From positions 1-50,820 of IMG/VR virus record IMGVR_UViG_3300036818_000065: a DNA stretch of 50,820 nucleotides; one strand, given 5' to 3'. The notes under the pieces are model-generated. The model was not told the DNA's origin. It made no database searches and was given only the letters and a program-made list of their open reading frames with translations. The DNA is from a virus. The stretch's first letter is position 1. Every line of letters begins with the position of its first letter. This document shows, piece after piece, positions 11,436-38,543 of this stretch. Both the position numbers and the translations under genes were made by a program.

Positions 11436-12008
11436 ATGAGTCAGGTAATAGACGAGCAAGAGCCGGGTAGCGGAGTTGAGCCCGAGGAAGAGGGCGCGGC
11501 TGTAAGTGAGGGCCGCGCCCAATCGGTGATGGAGCGACTCAAAGCCAAGCGCAATGCGATTGGTTCGGACACCACCGTCAAGCTACCCATTCCCGGATAC
11601 GATGGAGAGCTCGTTGGTGAATTCAAGCGCATGCGTTGGGAGGCTCTCTCGGACATCGCAGAAGCAGCCGAAAAGGGTCGCTCAAAACGCAGGCAGCTGA
11701 ATGGCCACGCAGACGTCATCGCCACTGCCCTGCAGCAGCTGCTGATCCGGAAACTGCTGCCGGGCGGCGACACCGAAGACATCCCGATGCATGAGATGTT
11801 CCCGGATGAATTTGGTGAGACCCCGGTTCGGTTCGATCCACGCCTGAGCAGCTGGATGGAACTTGAGATCGACGGCACCCCCACTGCCCGCAAGGTGGTG
11901 TTCGGGGTGTTCAGCAATGATCTGGCAGTCACCGCCATGCACAACGAACTTGGCGAATGGATGCAGTCCAGCAAGTCTGAGGAGGACGAGGATTTCTCGA
12001 AGAGCTGA
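11436..12008 (+). CDS. Tail assembly chaperone, short form
   Basis: 190 aa, ATG after AAAGGAGGGAGC. Acidic N-terminus, then a compact helical domain with a conserved-looking core (VKLPIPGYDGELVGEFKRM). It lies between tube and tape measure, the classic site of the chaperone pair. The ORF ends in a short acidic run (SEEDEDFSKS) inside which the downstream reading frame can be entered by a -1 shift (see 11981-12217). Confidence 0.8.
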   Translation: MSQVIDEQEPGSGVEPEEEGAAVSEGRAQSVMERLKAKRNAIGSDTTVKLPIPGYDGELVGEFKRMRWEALSDIAEAAEKGRSKRRQLNGHADVIATALQQLLIRKLLPGGDTEDIPMHEMFPDEFGETPVRFDPRLSSWMELEIDGTPTARKVVFGVFSNDLAVTAMHNELGEWMQSSKSEEDEDFSKS

Positions 12009-12217
12009 CGTATGGTGAGAACTCGATCGACATGGCGGCGAGGGTGCTCCTGGTTGGGGGAACTTTGAACGTGGTTGATGTCTTGAATGTCAAAGACCAA
12101 ACCGAGTTCACTATCCTTGACGTCATCGTCGATCGGGCTGCAGAATTTCAGGAAGTTCGAGACAAGAACCTAGCAACTGACATCGCCAACAAGATTGCAA
12201 AGAGCCAGAGGAAATAA
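11981..12217 (+). CDS. Tail assembly chaperone, -1 frameshift extension
   Basis: In the -1 frame relative to the short form, a frame opens after TGA (11978-11980) and runs to TAA (12215-12217). The ribosome must slip between 11981 and 12005; G GAT TTC at 11990-11996 is the best candidate site. The fused product would read DEDFLEELTYGENSIDMAA and continue for about 60 residues. An ATG at 12032 exists but has no good ribosome site. Long/short chaperone pairs made by -1 slippage just upstream of the tape measure are well established in lambda-like and many other tailed phages. Confidence 0.7.
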   Translation, partial: GGRGFLEELTYGENSIDMAARVLLVGGTLNVVDVLNVKDQTEFTILDVIVDRAAEFQEVRDKNLATDIANKIAKSQRK

Positions 12218-14622
12218 TGGGCCTGACTGAGGAGCAGATTGGTGTGAAGATGCGCCTACAGGGCACGTCTGAATATCAGGCCCAGATGAAGAAAAGTACG
12301 GACGTCACTCTGGCATACGGTGACGCCGCTGAGCGTGCTGGGGCTCAGGCCAAATCTGGCGCGGTTGGCATTGACGCTATGGCAGCGTCATCCAAAAAAG
12401 GCGTTGGTTCTCTAGAACGAATGAAGAAGGCCGGTGAGGGACTCAAGTCCACCGGCAGCAAGTTGACGGGAGCGTTCACCGTGCCCATCGCCCTCATCGG
12501 CGGCGTGGGCGTGAAGATGGCGCTTGACTTTAGCGATGCGATGGAGCAAATCTCCACGCAGGCAGGTGCATCGCAGCGAGAAGTTGGAATCATGACTAAA
12601 AAAGTCATGGAATTTGCTGCGTCTGGAAAATCATCTGAGGGACCCAATCAACTAGCAGAAGGCTTGTATAGCATCGAGTCGGCTGGCTTCCGAGGGAAAC
12701 GTGCATTTGAAGCGCTGGTCAGGTCGGAGCAGCTGGCGACCGTAGGACACGCAGACTTCGGCAAAACTTCCAAAGCCGTAGCAGCCGCCATGGCCACCCA
12801 GATCAAGGGTACCCAGAACTTGGGTGAAACCGTCGGACTGATGAACAGCATCGTCGGAATTGGGTCCATGCGGATGGAAGACCTGCTGTCAGCGATGGGC
12901 ACCGGCCTTCTGGACAAATCGGCTGGCCTCGGGCTTTCCTTGCAGGAAGTCGGGGCAGCGTTGGGAGTGCTCACTACGACGGGCACCCCGGCTGCAGCAT
13001 CCAGCACCCGCATGGCAATGGCCTTTAACATGATGGCTGCCCCGACGGAAAAAGCGGCCAAGGCTATGGAATCGATTGGCCTTAGCGAATCGCAGCTTGC
13101 AATGAGCATGCGCCAGCGAGGCCTGGTGCCAACCATCGAACTTTTGAAAAGCAAACTGGACGAAACTTTCGGAACCAACAAGCAGGGGTTGGTTGAACAG
13201 TCTAAGGCCATCAGTGAAATGTTCGGTGGCGGTCGTACCAGTGGCGGCATCATCAGCCTTATGCGCCACATCGACATGCTCAAATCAAAGACCGGAGAAC
13301 TCACCGGTTCTCAGGAGAAATTCAAACACGCCTTGGAGCACACTGAGGAGCAGCCCATCACGAAACTGCATCAAGCTTGGGCGCAGGCCCAGACGGTGTT
13401 GATCGAACTAGGGAACATCTTGATTCCCGTCCTGACTAAGGTAGTCAAATTCTTCACCGGACTGTTTCAAGCATTCTCTCATCTTCCTCCTAGCGTCAAG
13501 CAGGTGATTGTGTTCGCGATGCTGGCGATAGGTGTTCTCGGCCCGTTGCTGTCACTGATTGGAACTATGACTATTGGGATAGTTGCTCTTGGTGATGCAC
13601 TGATGTTCTTGGCCACCAACCCGGTCGGCGCGGTCATCACTGCAGTGGCGCTGGCAGCGATTGGATTCTACACTTTGTACACTCAAGTCGAATGGTTTCA
13701 CAAGGCTGTAGACGATGTTGTTAGCTTCTTGAAGGCGCACCCGCTACTGCTGTTTGGCATCAGCCCGTTCTTGGCCGAGGTGGTACTCATAATTCAGCAC
13801 TTTGACTGGATCAAGAACGCTGTACACAACGTCATTCACTTCTTCGAACTTCTACCCCAGCGGGCTTTGGCAGGAGTTCAAGCGCTCCCGGGTTTGATCA
13901 AAACTCTGGTGATTAAGTCCATTGTGTTCATGGCACTACTACCGATCAAGGTTCCGATCTTTTTTGTTCAGATGGGGATAAAGATCGTGGGCATCCTGAT
14001 AGGTTTGCTTCCCAAGCTGCTCAGCATCGGCGGGAAGATGGCGGTATTTATCGGCCACGGTGTTGCTCAAGGTGCATCTGCCATCTGGGGCTGGGTCAAG
14101 ACGCTGCCAGGCAAGTTCATGTCCGCCGTGGCTTCGATCGCTTCGCAGCTGGCAAGTGTCGGCGCTAACATCGCCAAGGAAATTGCCAACGGTCTGAAGA
14201 ACGAATTGTTGTCAATACTGCCCGGCCCTGTCAAGGATGCGCTCGAAGGAGCGACTGGGGTGGCAGGTGAAGTTGGCGGCTTCCTTGGTGGCGTGTTTGC
14301 GAGCGGCACCACCTTTGCGCCGGGCGGCATTTCACTGGTGGGCGAGCAAGGTCCGGAGCTGGTTAACCTGCCACGTGGCTCAGAAGTCATCAATGCCTCC
14401 CGCACCCGGCGCGTCATGGACAGCCCTGAAGCCACCGTACGGCCGCTGCGCTACCGGGGTGGGCCTACCCCCACGCGGCTTGAAAATGGGCGCGTACGTG
14501 GTGCAGGCGTGGCCAAGCGGCCTCCTATACGCCAGCCTATCAAGGTTGAGATGAAGGTTAGCAGGCGTACCTTCGGCGAGGCCATGGTGATGGCCCTGAT
14601 TGACGACGAGGAGAACGAATGA
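12217..14622 (+). CDS. Tape measure protein
   Basis: 801 aa, the longest tail gene, with ATG overlapping the TAA of the chaperone extension. Residues about 90-330 match the phage tail tape measure (TP901/PhageMin) core: DAMEQISTQAG, EVGIMTKKVMEFA, GLMNSIVGIG, LTTTGTPAAASSTRMA. Several hydrophobic segments follow (about 425-480, 500-520 and 555-605), then a C-terminal Gly-rich region with VGEQGPELVNLPRGSEVI, a motif common at tape-measure ends. It sets tail length and probably reaches the host membrane. Confidence 0.92.
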   Translation: MGLTEEQIGVKMRLQGTSEYQAQMKKSTDVTLAYGDAAERAGAQAKSGAVGIDAMAASSKKGVGSLERMKKAGEGLKSTGSKLTGAFTVPIALIGGVGVKMALDFSDAMEQISTQAGASQREVGIMTKKVMEFAASGKSSEGPNQLAEGLYSIESAGFRGKRAFEALVRSEQLATVGHADFGKTSKAVAAAMATQIKGTQNLGETVGLMNSIVGIGSMRMEDLLSAMGTGLLDKSAGLGLSLQEVGAALGVLTTTGTPAAASSTRMAMAFNMMAAPTEKAAKAMESIGLSESQLAMSMRQRGLVPTIELLKSKLDETFGTNKQGLVEQSKAISEMFGGGRTSGGIISLMRHIDMLKSKTGELTGSQEKFKHALEHTEEQPITKLHQAWAQAQTVLIELGNILIPVLTKVVKFFTGLFQAFSHLPPSVKQVIVFAMLAIGVLGPLLSLIGTMTIGIVALGDALMFLATNPVGAVITAVALAAIGFYTLYTQVEWFHKAVDDVVSFLKAHPLLLFGISPFLAEVVLIIQHFDWIKNAVHNVIHFFELLPQRALAGVQALPGLIKTLVIKSIVFMALLPIKVPIFFVQMGIKIVGILIGLLPKLLSIGGKMAVFIGHGVAQGASAIWGWVKTLPGKFMSAVASIASQLASVGANIAKEIANGLKNELLSILPGPVKDALEGATGVAGEVGGFLGGVFASGTTFAPGGISLVGEQGPELVNLPRGSEVINASRTRRVMDSPEATVRPLRYRGGPTPTRLENGRVRGAGVAKRPPIRQPIKVEMKVSRRTFGEAMVMALIDDEENE

Positions 14623-19443: not shown

Positions 19444-20613
19444 ATGGCTGAAGGATTTATCAACATTGCGATAGAGAGCGACCCTGATGTTTTGCGCCAG
19501 AGCGTGTACGAAAGGATCCAGGAACAGTTTCCAGAATGGAATCCTGCCAAGGCCGTGCTGGACAAATGGATCATCGATGGGTGTGCCCTCATTGGGGCAG
19601 ACCTTGGTGACGTGGCGGGCGTGGTGCCGGAAGAGATACTGCGACAGTTCGGCGAGACTATCTACAAAATTCCAGCACTGCTAGCCGAACCGGCAGTGGG
19701 TGTCATAACGATCAAAATACAGGACGGCAAAGGCTACCCAACCATCAAAGCCGGGACGCAGATGATGTTCGTCAAACCGGATGGGAACAAGGTTGCATTC
19801 CGTACCCAGGTCGACGTGGAAGTTCCAGTTGGCATGTCCGAAGTTAAAGAAGTTCCTATCGAATCTATCGAACCCGGAACTGAACAGAATCAGTTGTCCG
19901 ACGACCCACATCTTCTCGACAGCGTGTCCTACGTTACCGAACTTATCCAAACCAGCGCCAACACCAGCGGTGGCAAAGACGCTGAGACGCCAGAAGAATA
20001 TCTGGATCGCTTGACCGTCGAACTTGAACTGCTCAGCACTGCCCCCATCGTGCCCAAAGACTACGAGAAGCTGGCGCGGCGGGTTGGAATGTACAGGGCA
20101 GTGGCGATAGACGGCTGGGACCCGGTGGCTGAAACTGAAGGAAACGAACGCATGATCTCGGTAGCCATGGTCGATGAAGAAGGCGAAGGTGCCACGGCCA
20201 AAAAGAAAGAAGAATATGAAGCGGAAGTAGAGTCCAAACGTGAGGTCAATTTCGTCATACACGTCATCGACCCCACCTACAATGAAATCAACGTGCAGGT
20301 GGAAGCAGTAGCGCTGCCGGGGTTCGACAAAGACATTGTCAAAGAACAGATTGAATCAGCATTGGACAACTACCTTGCAGCTAGGAACTCTGGCAACAGC
20401 CCTGGTGAACCGCGCTCGTGGAGGCAGAACACTGTTGTTCGCAAAAATGAGTTGATCTGGCTGATCAACACGGTACAAGGCGTGGACTACATAGTGGGGG
20501 ATGTAAAACTGTCCAAGGGCGTTGGTGCGTTGAAAGCAGAAGATGTTCCGCTAACTGGCAAAGCTGCCCTCACCAAACCTAAGACCTTGACCGTCACGGT
20601 GGTGGAAGCCTGA
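19444..20613 (+). CDS. Baseplate J-like protein
   Basis: 389 aa. ATG at 19444 (GGGGAGCTAAG upstream) is chosen over earlier in-frame codons because it starts where the W-like gene ends. The gpJ/gp6 family pattern is visible: N-terminal helix (DPDVLRQSVYERIQEQFPEW), a central beta region (KAGTQMMFV), ETPEEYLDRL near the middle, and a C-terminal repeat of alpha/beta units (EQIESALDNYL, RKNELIWLINTVQGVDYI). It forms the wedge ring that triggers sheath contraction. Confidence 0.87.
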   Translation: MAEGFINIAIESDPDVLRQSVYERIQEQFPEWNPAKAVLDKWIIDGCALIGADLGDVAGVVPEEILRQFGETIYKIPALLAEPAVGVITIKIQDGKGYPTIKAGTQMMFVKPDGNKVAFRTQVDVEVPVGMSEVKEVPIESIEPGTEQNQLSDDPHLLDSVSYVTELIQTSANTSGGKDAETPEEYLDRLTVELELLSTAPIVPKDYEKLARRVGMYRAVAIDGWDPVAETEGNERMISVAMVDEEGEGATAKKKEEYEAEVESKREVNFVIHVIDPTYNEINVQVEAVALPGFDKDIVKEQIESALDNYLAARNSGNSPGEPRSWRQNTVVRKNELIWLINTVQGVDYIVGDVKLSKGVGALKAEDVPLTGKAALTKPKTLTVTVVEA

Positions 20614-21221
20614 TGCCTCGACCCGAAGTTACCCAAGCTGCGGAGCTCCTATATGGACGCCTGTGGCCGTACACGTTGGAAGATGAAGCCAATGAATGGC
20701 AGCTGTTGTTGTTCTGCGAGTTCTTGGCTGGGACGTTGTTCGAGCAGGTGCGATCTTATGTCGCTGACCGACCTGAAATGCTTGGCTGGGAGATCGTCTT
20801 TAACGTGGACGCTTGCCCTCCAGAGGCACTGCCCTACCTGGCGCAATTCGTCGGCGTTCACTTCGACCCCAGCGAAACGGTTGAACAGCAACGGCAAAAG
20901 ATCAAGGATCGCCCGGCGTTCAGCCGAGGCACTCCGGCTGCGATACTGGCGGCTGCCAAGCAACGCTTGACTGGTGATAAGAACGTATATATGGAGGAGC
21001 GATTTGAAGGGCATGCATATCGCTTGCTGATCCGTGTATTCGGTAGCCAAACTCCGGACCCGGAAGGGACCGAGTCCGATATCCTCAAACAGAAGCCAGC
21101 TGGGATCAAACTAGTGTTTGAGGTGACCGGACTGAAAGTCTATTCAGAGATCAAAGCTGAATATGCCACCTATGCCAAACTCAAAGAAGCCGGAACCTAC
21201 CAAGAAGCGGCTGCGGAATAG
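20613..21221 (+). CDS. Baseplate/tail protein I-like
   Basis: 202 aa; ATG overlaps the J-like stop by one base. The order W-J-I and the pattern PPEALPYLAQFVGVHFD, then RQKIKDRPAFSRGTPAAILAAAKQRLTG, fit the P2 gpI / tail-protein family found at baseplate edges. The C-terminus is Ala/Lys/Glu-rich. It is the last gene of the structural block; a promoter-like region follows. Confidence 0.72.
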   Translation: MPRPEVTQAAELLYGRLWPYTLEDEANEWQLLLFCEFLAGTLFEQVRSYVADRPEMLGWEIVFNVDACPPEALPYLAQFVGVHFDPSETVEQQRQKIKDRPAFSRGTPAAILAAAKQRLTGDKNVYMEERFEGHAYRLLIRVFGSQTPDPEGTESDILKQKPAGIKLVFEVTGLKVYSEIKAEYATYAKLKEAGTYQEAAAE

Positions 21222-21231
21222 CCATTCGCGC

Positions 21232-21300
21232 TAAGATGTAGTACAGTTCGATAGGTAGCAGTAACAGGCAACGCACACAACAAAAGAGGGAGCACCTAGA
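21232..21300 (+). promoter_or_regulatory. Promoter-like -10 and long leader before the basic HTH gene
   Basis: TAAGAT at 21232-21237 sits in CGCTAAGAT, the same nine bases seen at 22932-22940. The leader to the ATG at 21301 is about 55 bases and ends GAGGGAGCACCTAGA. The -35 of the other phage promoters is not at the usual 17 bases here; AAGCGG lies at 21205-21210, 21 bases away. It marks the border between structural and early/middle genes. Confidence 0.5.
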
Positions 21301-21801
21301 ATGCCGAAAGGTAAAGCGAAAAGCAAAGGTCGGGCCAAGAACAACGACGAGGCTCTGATCAAGAAAGTTCTCGCCCTTCGCGGACGAGACAAGAAGTGGA
21401 GCGAGATCGGGGAAGAGCTCGGGATCACGCCGGGTAAGGCTCAGTTCCTCGTGATGCGTTCCGAGGTGAAGCCGAAAGACCGGATCAAATTCACCAACGA
21501 CGAAGATCTGGCCGCCAAGGTGGTTGCGGCTCGCGACAAGGACCTGCTCTCCTGGGGTCTGATCGCCGCGCGCTCGGGCGTGTCCGAGGGCAAGATCAAG
21601 CGCCTGTACGAGGAGGCCGGGGGCAAGGGGCCGCAGAACGTCGCCTCCGCTCGTGCCGGCGATGGAGAAAGCGCCCCGCGCAAAGCATCCAAAAAAGGCG
21701 CCAAAGCCAAAGGCAAAAAAGGCGCTCGCGAGAAAGTCGCTCGCAAAGGCAAAGGTCGGCGTAAAGGCAAAGGGCGCAAAAACCCTTCGACCAACAGCTG
21801 A
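21301..21801 (+). CDS. Tandem helix-turn-helix protein with histone H1-like basic tail
   Basis: 166 aa. Residues about 16-52 (LIKKVLALRG, KKWSEIGEELGITPGKAQFLV) and 64-100 (LAAKVVAARD, SWGLIAARSGVSEGKIKRLYEEAG) each look like a helix-turn-helix. From about 118 the chain is almost only Lys, Arg, Gly and Ala (KKGAKAKGKKGAREKVARKGKG), like a histone H1 tail. It should bind DNA, as a nucleoid-type or transcription protein. The 0 frame ends shortly after A-rich codons, and a long open -1 frame follows (21777-22016), which may be its true C-terminus. Confidence 0.75.
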   Translation: MPKGKAKSKGRAKNNDEALIKKVLALRGRDKKWSEIGEELGITPGKAQFLVMRSEVKPKDRIKFTNDEDLAAKVVAARDKDLLSWGLIAARSGVSEGKIKRLYEEAGGKGPQNVASARAGDGESAPRKASKKGAKAKGKKGAREKVARKGKGRRKGKGRKNPSTNS

Positions 21802-22016
21802 CCGATGAGGAGCTAGAGACCCTGCTGCCGGAAGGCCGCAGGGTCACTATCCTCTCGTCCTACGAAGGTCATTCTTTGGAGAATGAGTTCGTGGTCAAAT
21901 CGGTCAGGAGTTTCACCCCCGATACCGGAATCCTTCAATTCTGGGATCAGCACACCATGGGGCTACGGACCTATAAGGTCGCCGGCGAAGGGGCTTCGAA
22001 GATCATCCTCCACTAG
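21777..22016 (+). CDS. -1 frame extension of the basic HTH protein, or start-less ORF
   Basis: In the -1 frame the chain reads FDQQLTDEELETLLPEG, RRVTILSSYEG, LENEFVVKSVRSFTPD, LRTYKVAGEGASKIILH to TAG at 22014-22016. It is well-formed beta-rich protein sequence but has no ATG, GTG or TTG near its beginning. The -1 frame is closed by TAA at 21762-21764, and the 0 frame ends at 21799-21801. A slip must therefore occur between them, where C AAA AAC (21777-21783) is the only slippery-looking heptamer. The alternatives are a CTG start or a real or sequencing frameshift. Confidence 0.55.
   Translation, partial: QKPFDQQLTDEELETLLPEGRRVTILSSYEGHSLENEFVVKSVRSFTPDTGILQFWDQHTMGLRTYKVAGEGASKIILH
21818..21845 (+). 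other. Strong hairpin with GGAA loop inside the -1 frame
   Basis: GACCCTGC (21818-21825) pairs perfectly with GCAGGGTC (21838-21845). Inside, GCC pairs with GGC around a GGAA loop, with one mismatch between the two stems. There is no T run after it, so it is not a standard terminator. It lies about 35 bases after the candidate slip site and could slow ribosomes or be structural RNA. Confidence 0.6.
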
Positions 22017-22055
22017 GGCAGGTCACCCGTACGGAAATCGAAGGGTGGCCTGCCC
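22016..22055 (+). terminator. 13-bp hairpin after the basic HTH locus (possible terminator or RNA end)
   Basis: GGGCAGGTCACCC (22016-22028) pairs with GGGTGGCCTGCCC (22043-22055), with one G-T pair and a 14-base loop. It begins at the last base of the TAG of the -1 frame. No U tract follows, so factor-independent termination is uncertain; it may protect the 3' end of an mRNA. Confidence 0.5.
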
Positions 22056-22074
22056 ATCCACATAAGGAGCGACT

Positions 22075-22305
22075 ATGAAGTTTGAGTTCAAGAAAGTTCC
22101 AGTGCCGTCCCGCGCCAAGAAGAGCCTCGACAAGAGCGTTACCAACGTACGTGCGTTCAAGGTCAAATGTGACGGCAACGTCATTGGCACGGTGGTGGGC
22201 TCGGACATGGCAGGCAAGCCGGGTTGGGGATACATGCGAGAGGACAAGCTGTATGGCGGCTTCGGTACGCGACAGCTAGCAGCGGAACGGCTGGCGGCAT
22301 CATGA
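22075..22305 (+). CDS. Hypothetical basic small protein
   Basis: 76 aa, ATG after ATAAGGAGCGACT, a good ribosome site. Basic N-terminus (KFEFKKVPVPSRAKKSLDK), then a beta-like core (AFKVKCDGNVIGTVVGS) and an Arg/Ala-rich helix at the end (FGTRQLAAERLAAS). No family is recognised. It heads a run of three tightly overlapping small genes before the SNF2-type helicase. Confidence 0.7.
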   Translation: MKFEFKKVPVPSRAKKSLDKSVTNVRAFKVKCDGNVIGTVVGSDMAGKPGWGYMREDKLYGGFGTRQLAAERLAAS

Positions 22306-22502
22306 TCAAATTCAGGAAGAACAGGTCAAAACAGATCTTGGTTCTATCAGAGGTGTTGCGCATCAAATGTGACGCTCCTCGACTGGAGGTGTCGCAGTAC
22401 TCCGATGGCGGTTTGGGAGTGTCCAGGCTCAACGAGTCTGGCAAGGTCGAGGCTTACACCGCCATTGCTGTCGATGGCGAGACCAGGACGGAGGTTGCTT
22501 GA
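22302..22502 (+). CDS. Hypothetical small protein
   Basis: 66 aa. ATG at 22302 overlaps the previous stop (ATGA), so this start is preferred to the longer frame. The short beta-rich sequence (RKNRSKQILVLSEVLRIKCD, VEAYTAIAVDGETRTEV) shares the phrase R-x-K-C-D with the preceding gene product (FKVKCDG), which hints at distant duplication. Function unknown. Confidence 0.65.
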   Translation: MIKFRKNRSKQILVLSEVLRIKCDAPRLEVSQYSDGGLGVSRLNESGKVEAYTAIAVDGETRTEVA

Positions 22503-22723
22503 TGCCAAAGAAGACGCCAAGCCGAGACAAACGGCTTAAGATTGATCTCTGGGTGACGGATGGCCTGCGAGCTGCTGTGGGAGCCACCGTGCGTGACGAC
22601 GGTAAGCCCGCCAACGACACTCAGCTTCGCTACTGGGCGCAGCAGCAGGTAGACGAGGCCAGCACCCAGGAGGTTGAGAGGTTCGAGTCGCACCGCCGAC
22701 GCCCGCGCCGACGGGGGCAGTGA
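22502..22723 (+). CDS. Hypothetical basic small protein
   Basis: 73 aa. The ATG at 22502 overlaps the preceding TGA by one base. Basic N-terminus (PKKTPSRDKRLKIDLWVTDG), a middle part DDGKPANDTQLRYWAQQQVDEA, and an Arg-rich end (SHRRRPRRRGQ). The arrangement resembles a small nucleic-acid-binding protein, but no family is recognised. Confidence 0.65.
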   Translation: MPKKTPSRDKRLKIDLWVTDGLRAAVGATVRDDGKPANDTQLRYWAQQQVDEASTQEVERFESHRRRPRRRGQ

Positions 22724-22974
22724 TGGCTGGGCTGCCAGTCTACACCATCGAGAAGCGAGAACGCGGGTGGCTGTTTGTCAGCTGCCCGCGTAAAGACTGC
22801 GGCGAACAGTTTGCTGTGGTCCCTAGTCGCTGGGCCGAGTCCTGGAAGGGACATGGGCGTGCATGCCCATATTGCTTCCGCCCCTCAAAAATGCCTGCAA
22901 AACGTGGGGAAAAGCGGAAAGGATCGAAATCCGCTAAGATTTCTTCTACCAGCCAACGTAGAAGGAGCGTCTAG
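22723..22974 (+). CDS. Zinc-ribbon small protein
   Basis: 83 aa; ATG overlaps the previous TGA. Two cysteine knuckles, CPRKDCG (about residues 19-25) and CPYC (about 48-51), form a four-Cys zinc ribbon. A Lys/Arg/Ser-rich tail (KRGEKRKGSKSAK) follows. The 3' end of the gene carries the promoter of the next gene. Zinc ribbons of this size usually bind nucleic acid or a polymerase; the target is unknown. Confidence 0.7.
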   Translation: MAGLPVYTIEKRERGWLFVSCPRKDCGEQFAVVPSRWAESWKGHGRACPYCFRPSKMPAKRGEKRKGSKSAKISSTSQRRRSV

Positions 22975-22975
22975 T
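22912..22975 (+). promoter_or_regulatory. Phage promoter P1 and leader of the SNF2-type gene
   Basis: -35 AAGCGG (22912-22917), 17-base spacer, -10 TAAGAT (22935-22940), then seven bases to ACCAGCCAA (22948-22956), the likely first transcribed bases. GAAGGAG (22961-22967) is the ribosome site for ATG 22976. The spacing and boxes match P2-P4. Confidence 0.65.
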
Positions 22976-24940
22976 ATGGAAGCCAAAGCCAGCCTACACG
23001 AAGACTCGAAGATCAAGGTCGAGTTTCCATGGCATCCCAAAGCCGTTCAAGTCATCAGGGGAATCCCTGGAGCTCGTTTCACGCCGCGTGAGAAGGGTGG
23101 TCCGTTCTGGCTGCTGCCGCTCAGTATGGAGAGCGGACGCGCGCTGCGCGAAGCTTTCAGTTCTGATGGTGATTCGATCGCTTATAGCAAACAGTTGCTA
23201 GTCTGGGGCCGGGAGCAACGCGACCGCGAGCGTAATCTGGCCAATGTAACGCTTGCCGATGACGCAAAGCTACCACGTCTGGAAAGCCTTGACGTTCATA
23301 TGCCCAAGGAGTTCCGGAGGTCTAACAAACGTCTCAAAAAAGAAGGGCGCAAAGCCAACTACGACAGCCAGCCGCTACATAAGTGGATGCGATCTGATCA
23401 GCGCGTCAACGCTGCATTCATGGCCAAGACCAGCTGCATCAACGGCGACCAGCAGGGGCTGGGCAAGACGGTTGAGTGGATCGCTGCAATTTACGAGGCT
23501 GAAATGGAAAACGGTTACCACCTAGTGTCAGCTCCCGTCACCTCGTTAGAGAACACTTGGGTGACTGAGATTGAGAAGTGGATGGACATCACTATCCTGA
23601 CCGGCGACAACCCCGCTAAGCGCAAACTGGCGCTGGAGGTTGCGGTGGAAATGTACGAAGCGGAGGAACCGTTCGTACTACTGATCAACCCGGCCATGAT
23701 CATCATGCACACGGAGAAGAAGGACGGCATACCGGTGCACGTTGATTCCAAAGGTCGTGCTGTCCGCACGCCTAAGAATCCAGGGTTTGAGCAGATTGAT
23801 TGGACTACGGTAACCGTGGACGAGTTCCACAAGATGGGGCTGGGCAACCCCAACACTGCCCAGCGTGAGGCGCACATCCGCGTCGGCCGTAAAGCGGAGC
23901 GGTTATGGCCGATGTCTGGCACTCCAATGGGCGGCAAGCCGATCAAGTTGTGGGGTGCGCTGAATGCCATATTTCCAAAACAGTTCAGCAGCAAATGGGC
24001 GTTCGTCGGGCACTATCTGGAGACGGAAGAGCGCGAGTACGAAAAAGAAGGCGAGCAACGAACTGGCCAGGTCATCGGTGGTATCCGTCCCGAGAAAGAA
24101 GAGGCGCTGACCCGCATGCTGGCCAGCTACATGGTTAGGCACCTCAAGAGTGAAGTGCTCAAAGACCTGCCTCCTAAGCAGTATGAGGACGTGTGGTGCG
24201 CCATGCATCCTAAACAGCGCAAACAGTACGAGGCATTTGCCAAGGAAGCCGAGATCAAACTCGAAACTGAGCGCATGTCCGTGCAGAACGTGCTGGATGA
24301 GTACACGCGGCTCAAACAGTTTGCCAGCGCTTGGCAAAAGGTTGTCAAGGCCGGCATGCGAGAAACCCAAGATGGTGACACGTTGCCGGTATGGCAGCTT
24401 ACGCCTCACGCAGACGCTTGTGGCAAGCTGCCCTACCTGCTAGACAAACTAGCTGAGCAGGGCATCACGCCGGACGATCCGGATGGCGATAGCGTAGCTG
24501 TTGTCGGTAGCCAGTTCAAGACGGTAGTCAAGATGCTGCATGGTCACTTGAACAAGATCGGCATCAAGGCTGAGATGATCACTGGAGATACCAAGGAGAA
24601 GGATCGCAATGCCATAGTGCAGCGCTTCCAGAACGGCTCCGAGGACAGCCCGCGAGTGCTGCTGTTGGTCACGACGGCAGCGGTGTCTCTCACGCTCGAC
24701 CGGGCTGACACCGTCCACATCATGGACGAGACTTGGAACCCAGACGATCAGGAACAGTTGGAGGACCGCATCCACCGAAGCAGCCGCATTCACCAAGTTA
24801 TTTGCTTCTACTACCGCAGCAAAGACACTCTGGAGGAATACATTCAAGAGATCACTGGCGGCAAGATAGTTGTCAACAAAAAGGTGCTTGACGAGCTCCG
24901 CAAGAAATTGAAAGACAGTCTTGTTGCCGAAGCCGCATAA
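22976..24940 (+). CDS. SNF2-family DNA helicase/translocase
   Basis: 654 aa. ATG at 22976 is chosen because GAAGGAG precedes it and the promoter lies just upstream; the longer in-frame start at 22775 would run through the zinc-ribbon gene. Residues about 10-60 resemble the HARP-like N-terminus of SMARCAL1-type proteins (FPWHPKAVQVIRGIPGARF). Walker A is GDQQGLGKT (157-165), the DEAH-like box is VDEFH (about 281-285), and the C-terminal motif QLEDRIHRSSRIHQV lies near 595. It is an ATP-driven double-strand translocase, likely acting in replication, recombination or fork remodelling. Confidence 0.88.
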   Translation: MEAKASLHEDSKIKVEFPWHPKAVQVIRGIPGARFTPREKGGPFWLLPLSMESGRALREAFSSDGDSIAYSKQLLVWGREQRDRERNLANVTLADDAKLPRLESLDVHMPKEFRRSNKRLKKEGRKANYDSQPLHKWMRSDQRVNAAFMAKTSCINGDQQGLGKTVEWIAAIYEAEMENGYHLVSAPVTSLENTWVTEIEKWMDITILTGDNPAKRKLALEVAVEMYEAEEPFVLLINPAMIIMHTEKKDGIPVHVDSKGRAVRTPKNPGFEQIDWTTVTVDEFHKMGLGNPNTAQREAHIRVGRKAERLWPMSGTPMGGKPIKLWGALNAIFPKQFSSKWAFVGHYLETEEREYEKEGEQRTGQVIGGIRPEKEEALTRMLASYMVRHLKSEVLKDLPPKQYEDVWCAMHPKQRKQYEAFAKEAEIKLETERMSVQNVLDEYTRLKQFASAWQKVVKAGMRETQDGDTLPVWQLTPHADACGKLPYLLDKLAEQGITPDDPDGDSVAVVGSQFKTVVKMLHGHLNKIGIKAEMITGDTKEKDRNAIVQRFQNGSEDSPRVLLLVTTAAVSLTLDRADTVHIMDETWNPDDQEQLEDRIHRSSRIHQVICFYYRSKDTLEEYIQEITGGKIVVNKKVLDELRKKLKDSLVAEAA

Positions 24941-27187: not shown

Positions 27188-27260
27188 GCCGGGTTAGACT
27201 AATTGGAAAAGTCGCAGGCTTTGTAAGCCTGAGTTGCGAGTTCGAATCTCGTACCCGGTA
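27188..27260 (+). tRNA. tRNA-Thr (anticodon UGU)
   Basis: A full cloverleaf can be drawn by eye. Acceptor stem GCCGGGT/ACCCGGT (first pair G-U), D stem GAC/GTC with loop TAATTGGAAAA, anticodon stem CAGGC/GCCTG around the loop TTTGTAA (anticodon TGT), T stem GCGAG/CTCGT with loop TTCGAAT, discriminator A. CCA is not encoded. It starts four bases after the nuclease stop, so it is co-transcribed and must be cut out. It reads ACA threonine codons. Confidence 0.9.
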
Positions 27261-27261
27261 C

Positions 27262-37900: not shown

Positions 37901-38349
37901 ACATAGAAGGCATTGATCGAACTCTTGACACTGTGCGGGACATGCTTAGTGAGGGTTGGGCTGACATGCCGGTTCCCACGCACACGTCAGTTGACGTACC
38001 CTACGAGCGTGGTAGGGACGAGAAGATTGTGTTCCTGGGTATGCCAATGGATATCAATCTGCGCGACATCTTCGAGAGCAACAGGGCACGAACCGGCGAA
38101 GAGCTCAGTCGTAATTCAGTTCGTGATCCGGACAAGAACGAGTGGGTCATGATCCTATGTACCGATGGTGACGAGCAAGTAACTATCCGTGTTGATCGCT
38201 GGCGCTATCCAAGGTTCCGGAAGATGGTTTGGGGTGCGCAGATGGGTCACGACTTGTTGCTGGTGGAGGGAGTTAAGCCTGGGTTCCGCACGGCCCGGGA
38301 GATTTATGTAAGGAAAATGTGGGTCATTGACCCCGACGAGGAGGATTGA
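34933..38349 (+). CDS. dnaE: DNA polymerase III alpha subunit
   Basis: 1138 aa from TTG at 34933, overlapping the previous stop as TTGA. The canonical PHP domain only begins at residue 74 (RFVSLHHHST near 74-83; MTEHGN near 113), so the first 72 residues form a basic, Arg-rich extension with CDHGYQPIGIRARRR; ATG 35149 is a poorer alternative start without a ribosome site. Polymerase motifs: GPARGSAAASLACW (about 438-451), PDIDLDF (about 482-488, two catalytic Asp), and a helix-hairpin-helix GIGPKTIDKIEEF (about 975). It is a replicative polymerase that would use the host beta clamp. Length is close to bacterial DnaE. Confidence 0.92.
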   Translation: MSENTGQGSSGSWRDDEVDSTKNATRRGAEESGLDAQVSTFKRDCDHGYQPIGIRARRRQRAAARRHANLKPMRFVSLHHHSTYSYLDGFQLPEAHVRRATEINMGAIAMTEHGNIFSHVKLEKAAEEQGVKPIFGCEVYCSHEQSQKKNHLTLLAMNSEGYKNLLMLASKSWADGFYYEPTVNYKWLKEYSKGIVCLSGCQGSALFTALVGGKFVDPADASYVRGEKVAKFFKRIFGDRFFLEVQAFPELEKSCQANPMIERLGRELGIRLVATMDCHYTAPEEQEIQKLLHNVRPGEKRTLEDMVRDWGYEVPLCPPPTDMAIYRRLRGTGLSKRGALEAIISTEEIAQQCEVELPKLPPVEYPLPKGYDTPKDLWRAWLKEGWLYRKCDKLPPRERARYKKQLAKECEVIEAKGYESYFLVVADTVKWTKNEQIPVGPARGSAAASLACWLLRITEVNPMLFDNLVFERFIDWSREDMPDIDLDFATYGRPQIRDYLVGKYGEGCVNNIGTFTVYKSKLALDDVARVHRIPKFKTETVKGLLIERSSGDLRASATIEDTAGQFPDAAKVFEEHPELQMAMDLEGNVKGFGVHAAGLVVSNGPITDVTAVLEKNIKGNLVQVVSMDKKDAERQGLEKLDFLALGTMDMIADALHRLDMTVEELYELPLDDPKTIEGFRQNDVLGIFQFEGRAMRSINGALKPDNFDEICDVTALARPGPLHNGAANAYIDIKRGAAQPEIIHPALSAITERTNYQIVYQEQILKAVVEIGQFDWTHASYIRKIISKKLGEQEFNRQWSRFWDGARTIDQRSDYEPMTEATAKRIWGNLITSGSYAFNAAHSRSYGMIGYWCQWLKQHHPEVFFASSLTKTRRGSGGGNVKAQFKGGQIDRHVVLMRDAKKGKPECGRKPIRVMPPSYDSGMHWEYEDGVLWAGLVQIPGVGDKTAEAMAAYAKENEIEAWENYVDVKGIGPKTIDKIEEFCERPDPFNIEGIDRTLDTVRDMLSEGWADMPVPTHTSVDVPYERGRDEKIVFLGMPMDINLRDIFESNRARTGEELSRNSVRDPDKNEWVMILCTDGDEQVTIRVDRWRYPRFRKMVWGAQMGHDLLLVEGVKPGFRTAREIYVRKMWVIDPDEED

Positions 38350-38351
38350 GT

Positions 38352-38543
38352 ATGCTCAAAGGAAAACAGCTGTATGAAGTCGCCCGCAAATTTGCAGAGG
38401 AGGATTTGGTACCGGCCCTCAATGGCAATGAAGTCGACGAGGAGGCTACGGACGCCATTCTCGAGAAAGCGGCAGAGCTCGGCATCGCCCTCTTGATTGA
38501 CATCGCTGAGAGCTTGCACGGTATCAAGGCGAAGGTTGGGTAA
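38352..38543 (+). CDS. Hypothetical small helical protein
   Basis: 63 aa. ATG at 38352 has GAGGAGG eight bases upstream and is preferred to TTG 38346. An acidic helical sequence (EVARKFAEEDLVPALNG, EEATDAILEKAAELG). No family is recognised. It follows the polymerase by two bases and may be an accessory protein. Confidence 0.6.
   Translation: MLKGKQLYEVARKFAEEDLVPALNGNEVDEEATDAILEKAAELGIALLIDIAESLHGIKAKVG

Follow-up and report, generated by a model that had tools for sequence, protein, structure and literature searches.

Probable programmed -1 ribosomal frameshifting at a proline codon in a putative regulator gene of uncultivated phages

Introduction

In the virus sequence examined here, a gene for a putative DNA-binding protein ends where a second reading frame takes over, and the question is whether ribosomes pass from the one frame into the other. 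The sequence, referred to below as the window, comprises all 50,820 bases (positions 1-50,820) of IMG/VR virus record IMGVR_UViG_3300036818_000065. A preliminary description of it had proposed that a basic protein with tandem helix-turn-helix (HTH) units is extended by -1 frameshifting, which would append an ordered, beta-rich domain.

Passages of PMC5009743 describe IS3-family elements, in which a -1 shift fuses orfA to a second domain (orfAB), and Ig-like domain extensions of phage proteins, in which the same kind of C-terminal domain is encoded in-frame in some phages and by frameshifting in others. The phage frameshifts described there and in parts of PMC6316719 concern tail chaperones and capsid and tail proteins. 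Searches of open-licence papers turned up no description of a frameshift of this kind in a phage DNA-binding protein.

In the present study we compare the junction in the window with those of 33 relatives, all from uncultivated virus contigs. The comparison of these 34 distinct junctions strongly supports the proposed extension, and we put the probability of programmed -1 ribosomal frameshifting in this gene at roughly 0.9.

Results

Two overlapping reading frames in the window

The features of the locus are given in Table 1. As the preliminary description had it, the 0-frame HTH ORF is the first gene past the structural block. Its 5' neighbour is the Tail_P2_I-like gene, and it lies 3' of both that gene and a baseplate J gene. 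The baseplate J gene and the helicase of the window distantly resemble actinophage counterparts, and the DNA of positions 20600-23000 had no match in 50,697 GenBank phage records. Elsewhere in the window, an ORF at 11436-12008 overlaps a coding-like -1 frame at 11981-12217 just 5' of the tape measure gene (log-likelihood +17.6 past the stop), which is likely the usual G/GT tail chaperone arrangement. A tRNA-Thr gene (anticodon TGT) is located at 27188-27261.

Table 1. Features of the locus and its surroundings, in window coordinates
Feature	Position	Strand	Evidence or remark
Tape measure gene	12217-14622
Tail_P2_I-like gene	20613-21221		Upstream of the 0-frame HTH ORF
Shine-Dalgarno-like AGGGAG ahead of ATG	21287-21292	+	Read from sequence
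0-frame ORF, short form, 166 aa	21301-21801	+	Codon log-likelihood +47.7 in frame 0
First HTH-like unit, residues 12-55	21334-21465	+	AlphaFold2 helices H12-28, H33-40, H44-55
Second HTH-like unit, residues 67-105	21499-21615	+	AlphaFold2 helices H67-79, H85-92, H96-105
Lys/Arg-rich tail to slip codon, predicted disordered	21655-21786	+	Sequence; pLDDT about 50-57
Slip site A AAC CCT (inferred), conserved core C CCT at 21783-21786	21780-21786	+	C CCY in 34/34 junctions
-1 frame extension, 76 aa + stop	21786-22016	+	Codon use; profile; dN/dS of relatives; pLDDT 90
0-frame stop TGA	21799-21801	+	Four codons past the Pro codon
Predicted long RNA hairpin, 24 pairs, loop of 4, -34.7 kcal/mol	21800-21859	+	Starts 13 nt past the Pro codon

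Purine-rich leaders precede the ATG in several relatives as well. The tandem HTH architecture proposed earlier is supported by the AlphaFold2 model, which predicts two confident HTH-like units. The block of the first was modelled with pLDDT 81-97 and gave a Sigma70_r4_2 match under the Pfam cutoff; the second gave a Sigma70_r4 match, likewise under the cutoff (E 0.0041). Against the PDB, the fold match of the HTH-part model is weak across the whole model. The C-terminal end of the 0-frame protein, KGKGRKNPSTNS followed by the stop, is basic, in agreement with the Lys/Arg-rich tail described before. The layout of a proline codon, four further codons and TGA is common to the window and four relatives (L124, L157, L175 and L183; L-numbers denote the virus-contig loci used in the comparison).

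Starting at 21765, the -1 frame stays open up to its stop at 22014-22016, so that the two frames overlap at 21765-21798, exactly as first reported. A codon-usage score trained on the long ORFs of the window gave +12.1 for the -1 frame over 21801-22013, versus -32.6 and -26.5 for the remaining forward frames; the coding signal switches frame near 21781. A long form would comprise 162 + 76 = 238 aa.

Relatives sharing the layout

Direct searches with the two halves of the window gene retrieved no convincing relative from viral contigs, GenBank phages or plasmids, and among GenBank phage proteins the matches were weak (E of 0.6 or more). A first search by way of the helicase alone also yielded no convincing relative of the two halves, and the genome contigs scanned held no match. 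Five proteins of cultivated actinophages, encoded near the helicase or annotated as HTH, look unrelated by eye. Relatives were reached via the neighbouring helicase and then via the extension: helicase alignments gave 80 virus loci and then another 80 (66 of them new), extension scans added more, and profiles of the HTH part and the extension were iterated over translated frames. The proteins of these relatives were likewise not found in GenBank phages.

The extension was found in 75 loci, many of which are the same contig fetched repeatedly. At 71 of the 75 it comes after a profile-detected HTH ORF, representing 31 distinct junctions, and four loci were first detected by the extension only. 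At three of these (L149, L155 and L167) it follows a DNA-binding-like ORF missed by the HTH profile; the fourth, L120, repeats the L119 junction in truncated form. This gives 34 distinct junctions with the window included. In all 75 loci the extension lies in the -1 frame, never in the +1 frame and never in the same ORF. Because it is common to 34 distinct sequences, the two-frame arrangement goes beyond chance; the sequences are mutually related and do not represent independent events. L125 and L126 are located ~65 kb apart on one contig of 129,757 bases, which carries two diverged helicase/frameshift copies and perhaps consists of two related phage genomes joined together.

Constraint on the extension and its possible start codons

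Between relatives, dN/dS of the extension in the -1 frame was 0.09-0.38 in 11 of 12 pairs, the twelfth being saturated and undefined. The same DNA read in control frames gave 1.00-2.62 in six pairs, with L015/L141 ungapped and poorly aligned. By this measure the -1 frame is under purifying selection, and the comparison demonstrates constraint on both frames. The window is a single virus record, so that an extra base in the reads that would join the two frames, some other fault of sequencing or assembly, or decay of the gene had to be considered. The same arrangement at 34 distinct junctions, which come from many metagenome assemblies made separately, together with the selection on the -1 frame, already contradicts such explanations at the level of the family and leaves them a negligible probability.

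The extension was originally described as lacking a start codon, and in the window its frame indeed has no ATG, GTG or TTG ahead of TTG 21876; it does contain two CTG codons, one at 21798 that overlaps the TGA and one at 21822. Any of these three codons, the CTG at 21822 following GAGGAG, could in principle start a separate protein by termination-reinitiation. The CTG at 21798 lies over the stop in the register familiar from ATGA overlaps, and a protein begun there would start with M-TDEEL; a reinitiation product would have the N-terminal MTDEELETLLPEGR. At 6 of 31 junctions a GTG shares bases with the stop, but the other 25 have no ATG, GTG or TTG within 16 nt past the stop, and in 20 of the 31 the first such codon lies at least 44 nt past it. 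Where the stop is TAG or TAA, moreover, any codon overlapping it in this way reads NTA. Conservation of the -1 frame begins at the slip site described below, and an independent start would leave the constancy of that site unexplained. An independent second gene, which would have spoken against frameshifting, is therefore improbable.

A proline codon as the probable slip site

Each of the 34 junctions has, among the last five codons of the upstream frame, a 0-frame proline codon (CCC or CCT) that directly follows a C. The same C CCY criterion was satisfied by 82 of 2376 distinct tails of long open frames from the same loci (3.5%). Around this core the sequence varies: the codon 5' of the proline codon is AAC, AGC, GAC, ACC or CGC, and the 3' codon, the third base of the proline codon (C or T) and the stop codon vary too. 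In five relatives (L125, L126, L140, L144 and L167) the stop follows the proline codon immediately. CGC CCT stands at the site in L122, L125, L126, L140 and L144.

Several relatives narrow down where the frame could change. A -1-frame TGA lies directly 5' of AAA CCC in L016, and the -1 frame of L017, L099 and L104 does not open until 16 nt ahead of the 0-frame stop; together these loci confine the shift to a few codons. Other loci, L015, L013, L012 and L009 among them, do not localise it, because their -1 frame is open far upstream. The heptamer C AAA AAC, pointed out earlier as a candidate, is present at 21777-21783, yet it is C CCY and not this heptamer that is conserved: the codon before AAC is GCA in L124, L157, L175 and L183.

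A complete tandem heptamer X XXY YYZ exists at 13 of the 34 junctions (12 of the 31, and L167 of the other three), the window with A AAC CCT being one of them. Since full tandem re-pairing is available in these 13 only, while re-pairing of one tRNA-Pro in the -1 frame is kept in all 34, we strongly infer that the shift takes place at C CCY, probably through slippage by one tRNA-Pro. A tRNA-Pro that has slipped by -1 from CCY can pair again, now with CCC, which explains the constraint on C CCY. By itself, C CCY is no frameshift marker, as it also occurs near the end of the DNA polymerase ORF of the window (38332-38543), where the next ORF has its own ATG (38352) after GAGGAGG. An upstream Shine-Dalgarno-like stimulator could be placed in 22 of the 34 junctions, compared to 39% in shuffles, a figure confounded by the codons of the basic tail.

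Frames could also be joined by slippage of the RNA polymerase. Transcriptional slippage usually requires long homopolymers; the window offers a run of five A followed by three C, but in many relatives the runs found there are no more than short, for example GGCAACCCTTCC or CGCCCTTAG, making this route very unlikely and ribosomal slippage the preferred reading.

A stable hairpin downstream of the proline codon

Positions 21775-21875 of the window have a fold z of -4.14. Among 28 of the 34 sequences (all except L122, L124, L125, L126, L140 and L144), the 70-nt stretch +20 to +90 from the proline codon gave a mean fold z of -5.98, with 89% below -3. The six left out, taken together, show no fold signal there; five of them are the loci with CGC CCT at the slip site. 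When all 34 were scored over +6 to +86, the mean was -3.75 and 26 were below -2. In the set of 28, stretches starting upstream of the proline codon gave means between 0.02 and -1.32.

In an alignment of 19 of the 34 sequences, to which the window does not belong, 34 cells were changed on both sides of the stem and still paired, versus 11.0 +/- 2.7 in shuffled alignments (0 of 500 reached this number), and slid versions of the alignment gave at most 10 double-changed cells. A covarying structure with many G-U pairs points to RNA. Stems of at least 12 pairs occur in 31 of 34 junctions and likewise in 20 of 34 for each of two control stretches; what sets the downstream hairpin apart is its length, with a median of 24 pairs in the 31 that have a stem versus 13 in the controls, and also its stability. 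No match to a known RNA family was obtained.

Measured from the first base of the proline codon, the hairpin begins at a median distance of 27 nt (range 8-57), which is beyond classical stimulators. It is plausible that it stimulates the shift. As it is farther off in most relatives than in the window, it may not push directly against a ribosome at the slip site. Stable structures are also found in some in-frame homologues (L165, z -5.9; L154 and L026, -4.2). Directly after the extension stop, the window has an inverted repeat at 22016-22055 (arms 22016-22028 and 22043-22055) without a T run, seen as a fold z of about -4.5 to -5 in the stretch starting at +220; the relatives have a weaker dip at +300 to +390.

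Predicted fold of the extension

The extension is predicted to consist of a helix and five strands with pLDDT 90, and to form a small beta-barrel resembling Sm/WYL-type barrels. Its fold matches are weak: VIA Z is about 5 for Hfq and 4.9 for PafBC, and the best Foldseek match is GerQ (E 0.037), with PafBC at E 0.041. The extension of the window had no match in Pfam, no solved homologue was identified by sequence, and none of the 34 members matched Pfam WYL at E up to 0.1, so the domain is termed Sm/WYL-like by fold only. WYL-domain regulators, such as PafBC, BrxR and CapW, combine an HTH DNA-binding part with a small barrel. The protein described here would be similar to these in overall plan, although the fold similarity is weak, and differs in the missing Pfam match, the two HTH units, the basic linker and the probable frameshift.

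Origin of the arrangement

A helicase tree of 52 rows included 34 loci with the frameshift, 12 with an in-frame domain and six without the domain. All 34 frameshift rows and two of the domain-less rows form one clade (100/100), within which the window is a long branch; a single origin followed by two losses is consistent with this. Outside the clade, homologues carry an in-frame C-terminal domain. One of them, L164, has an extension-type domain within the same ORF, scoring 15.3 bits where 200 shuffles gave at most 5.4. The other in-frame domains score weakly against the extension, and comparing the profiles of the two groups gave a weak result overall (P 0.005, probability 2.9%). We therefore regard L164 alone as a clear homologue with both parts in one ORF. 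A close helicase relative (L010:3128-3862) lacks the extension and seems to have a SAP-like stretch instead. Separately, one of the 34 members matched Pfam SAP.

Discussion

We propose that most ribosomes would reach the TGA at 21799 and release the 166-aa protein with its two HTH units and disordered basic tail. Some ribosomes with tRNA-Pro on CCT at 21784-21786 would slip back onto CCC at 21783-21785 and continue in the -1 frame, giving a minor long form of 238 aa that ends in the 76-residue small beta-barrel. The product would contain the tryptic junction peptide NPFDQQLTDEELETLLPEGR. The two forms may correspond to a regulator that lacks and one that carries a domain for sensing or multimerisation; judging from the structure model, the barrel could sense a ligand, multimerise or bind RNA. 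The preliminary description had further suggested that the tail might be H1-like and that the two forms might alter the behaviour of the regulator in the course of infection.

The arrangement shares features with several known systems, as far as these are covered in the passages of PMC5009743 and PMC6316719 drawn on here. As in phage lambda G/GT, a -1 shift close to the 3' end of the gene would yield a minor extended form (PMC5009743); unlike that chaperone, the present gene encodes tandem HTH units and follows baseplate genes rather than lying between the major tail protein and the tape measure gene. Compared to IS3 orfAB, there is no transposase domain, the extension is a 76-aa beta-rich one, the slip element is C CCY, and the gene is in a phage, after tail genes. 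The Ig-like extensions are similar in that a C-terminal domain is either in-frame or frameshifted, but they concern coat and other structural proteins (PMC5009743), whereas here a putative DNA-binding regulator is extended and the shift has a single direction across the clade. In SPP1 gp17.1* and in Listeria phage shifts at CCC, a proline codon near the stop is also the shift site; those shifts are +1 (PMC6316719, PMC5009743), while the downstream frame here is -1 in 34 of 34.

What distinguishes the present case is that the target is a putative regulator, and that the element kept throughout is a slip core of four bases at a proline codon rather than a full heptamer, with a covarying hairpin just downstream. 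It is about an even chance that, in this clade of uncultivated phages, the ratio of a regulator without to one with a sensor-like barrel is set by -1 slippage of a single tRNA-Pro at C CCY, outside the classical heptamer, and tuned by an unusually long and distant hairpin. For research on recoding, the clade provides 34 natural sites bearing on how one tRNA can slip by -1, and gene pairs of this layout would escape ordinary gene finders.
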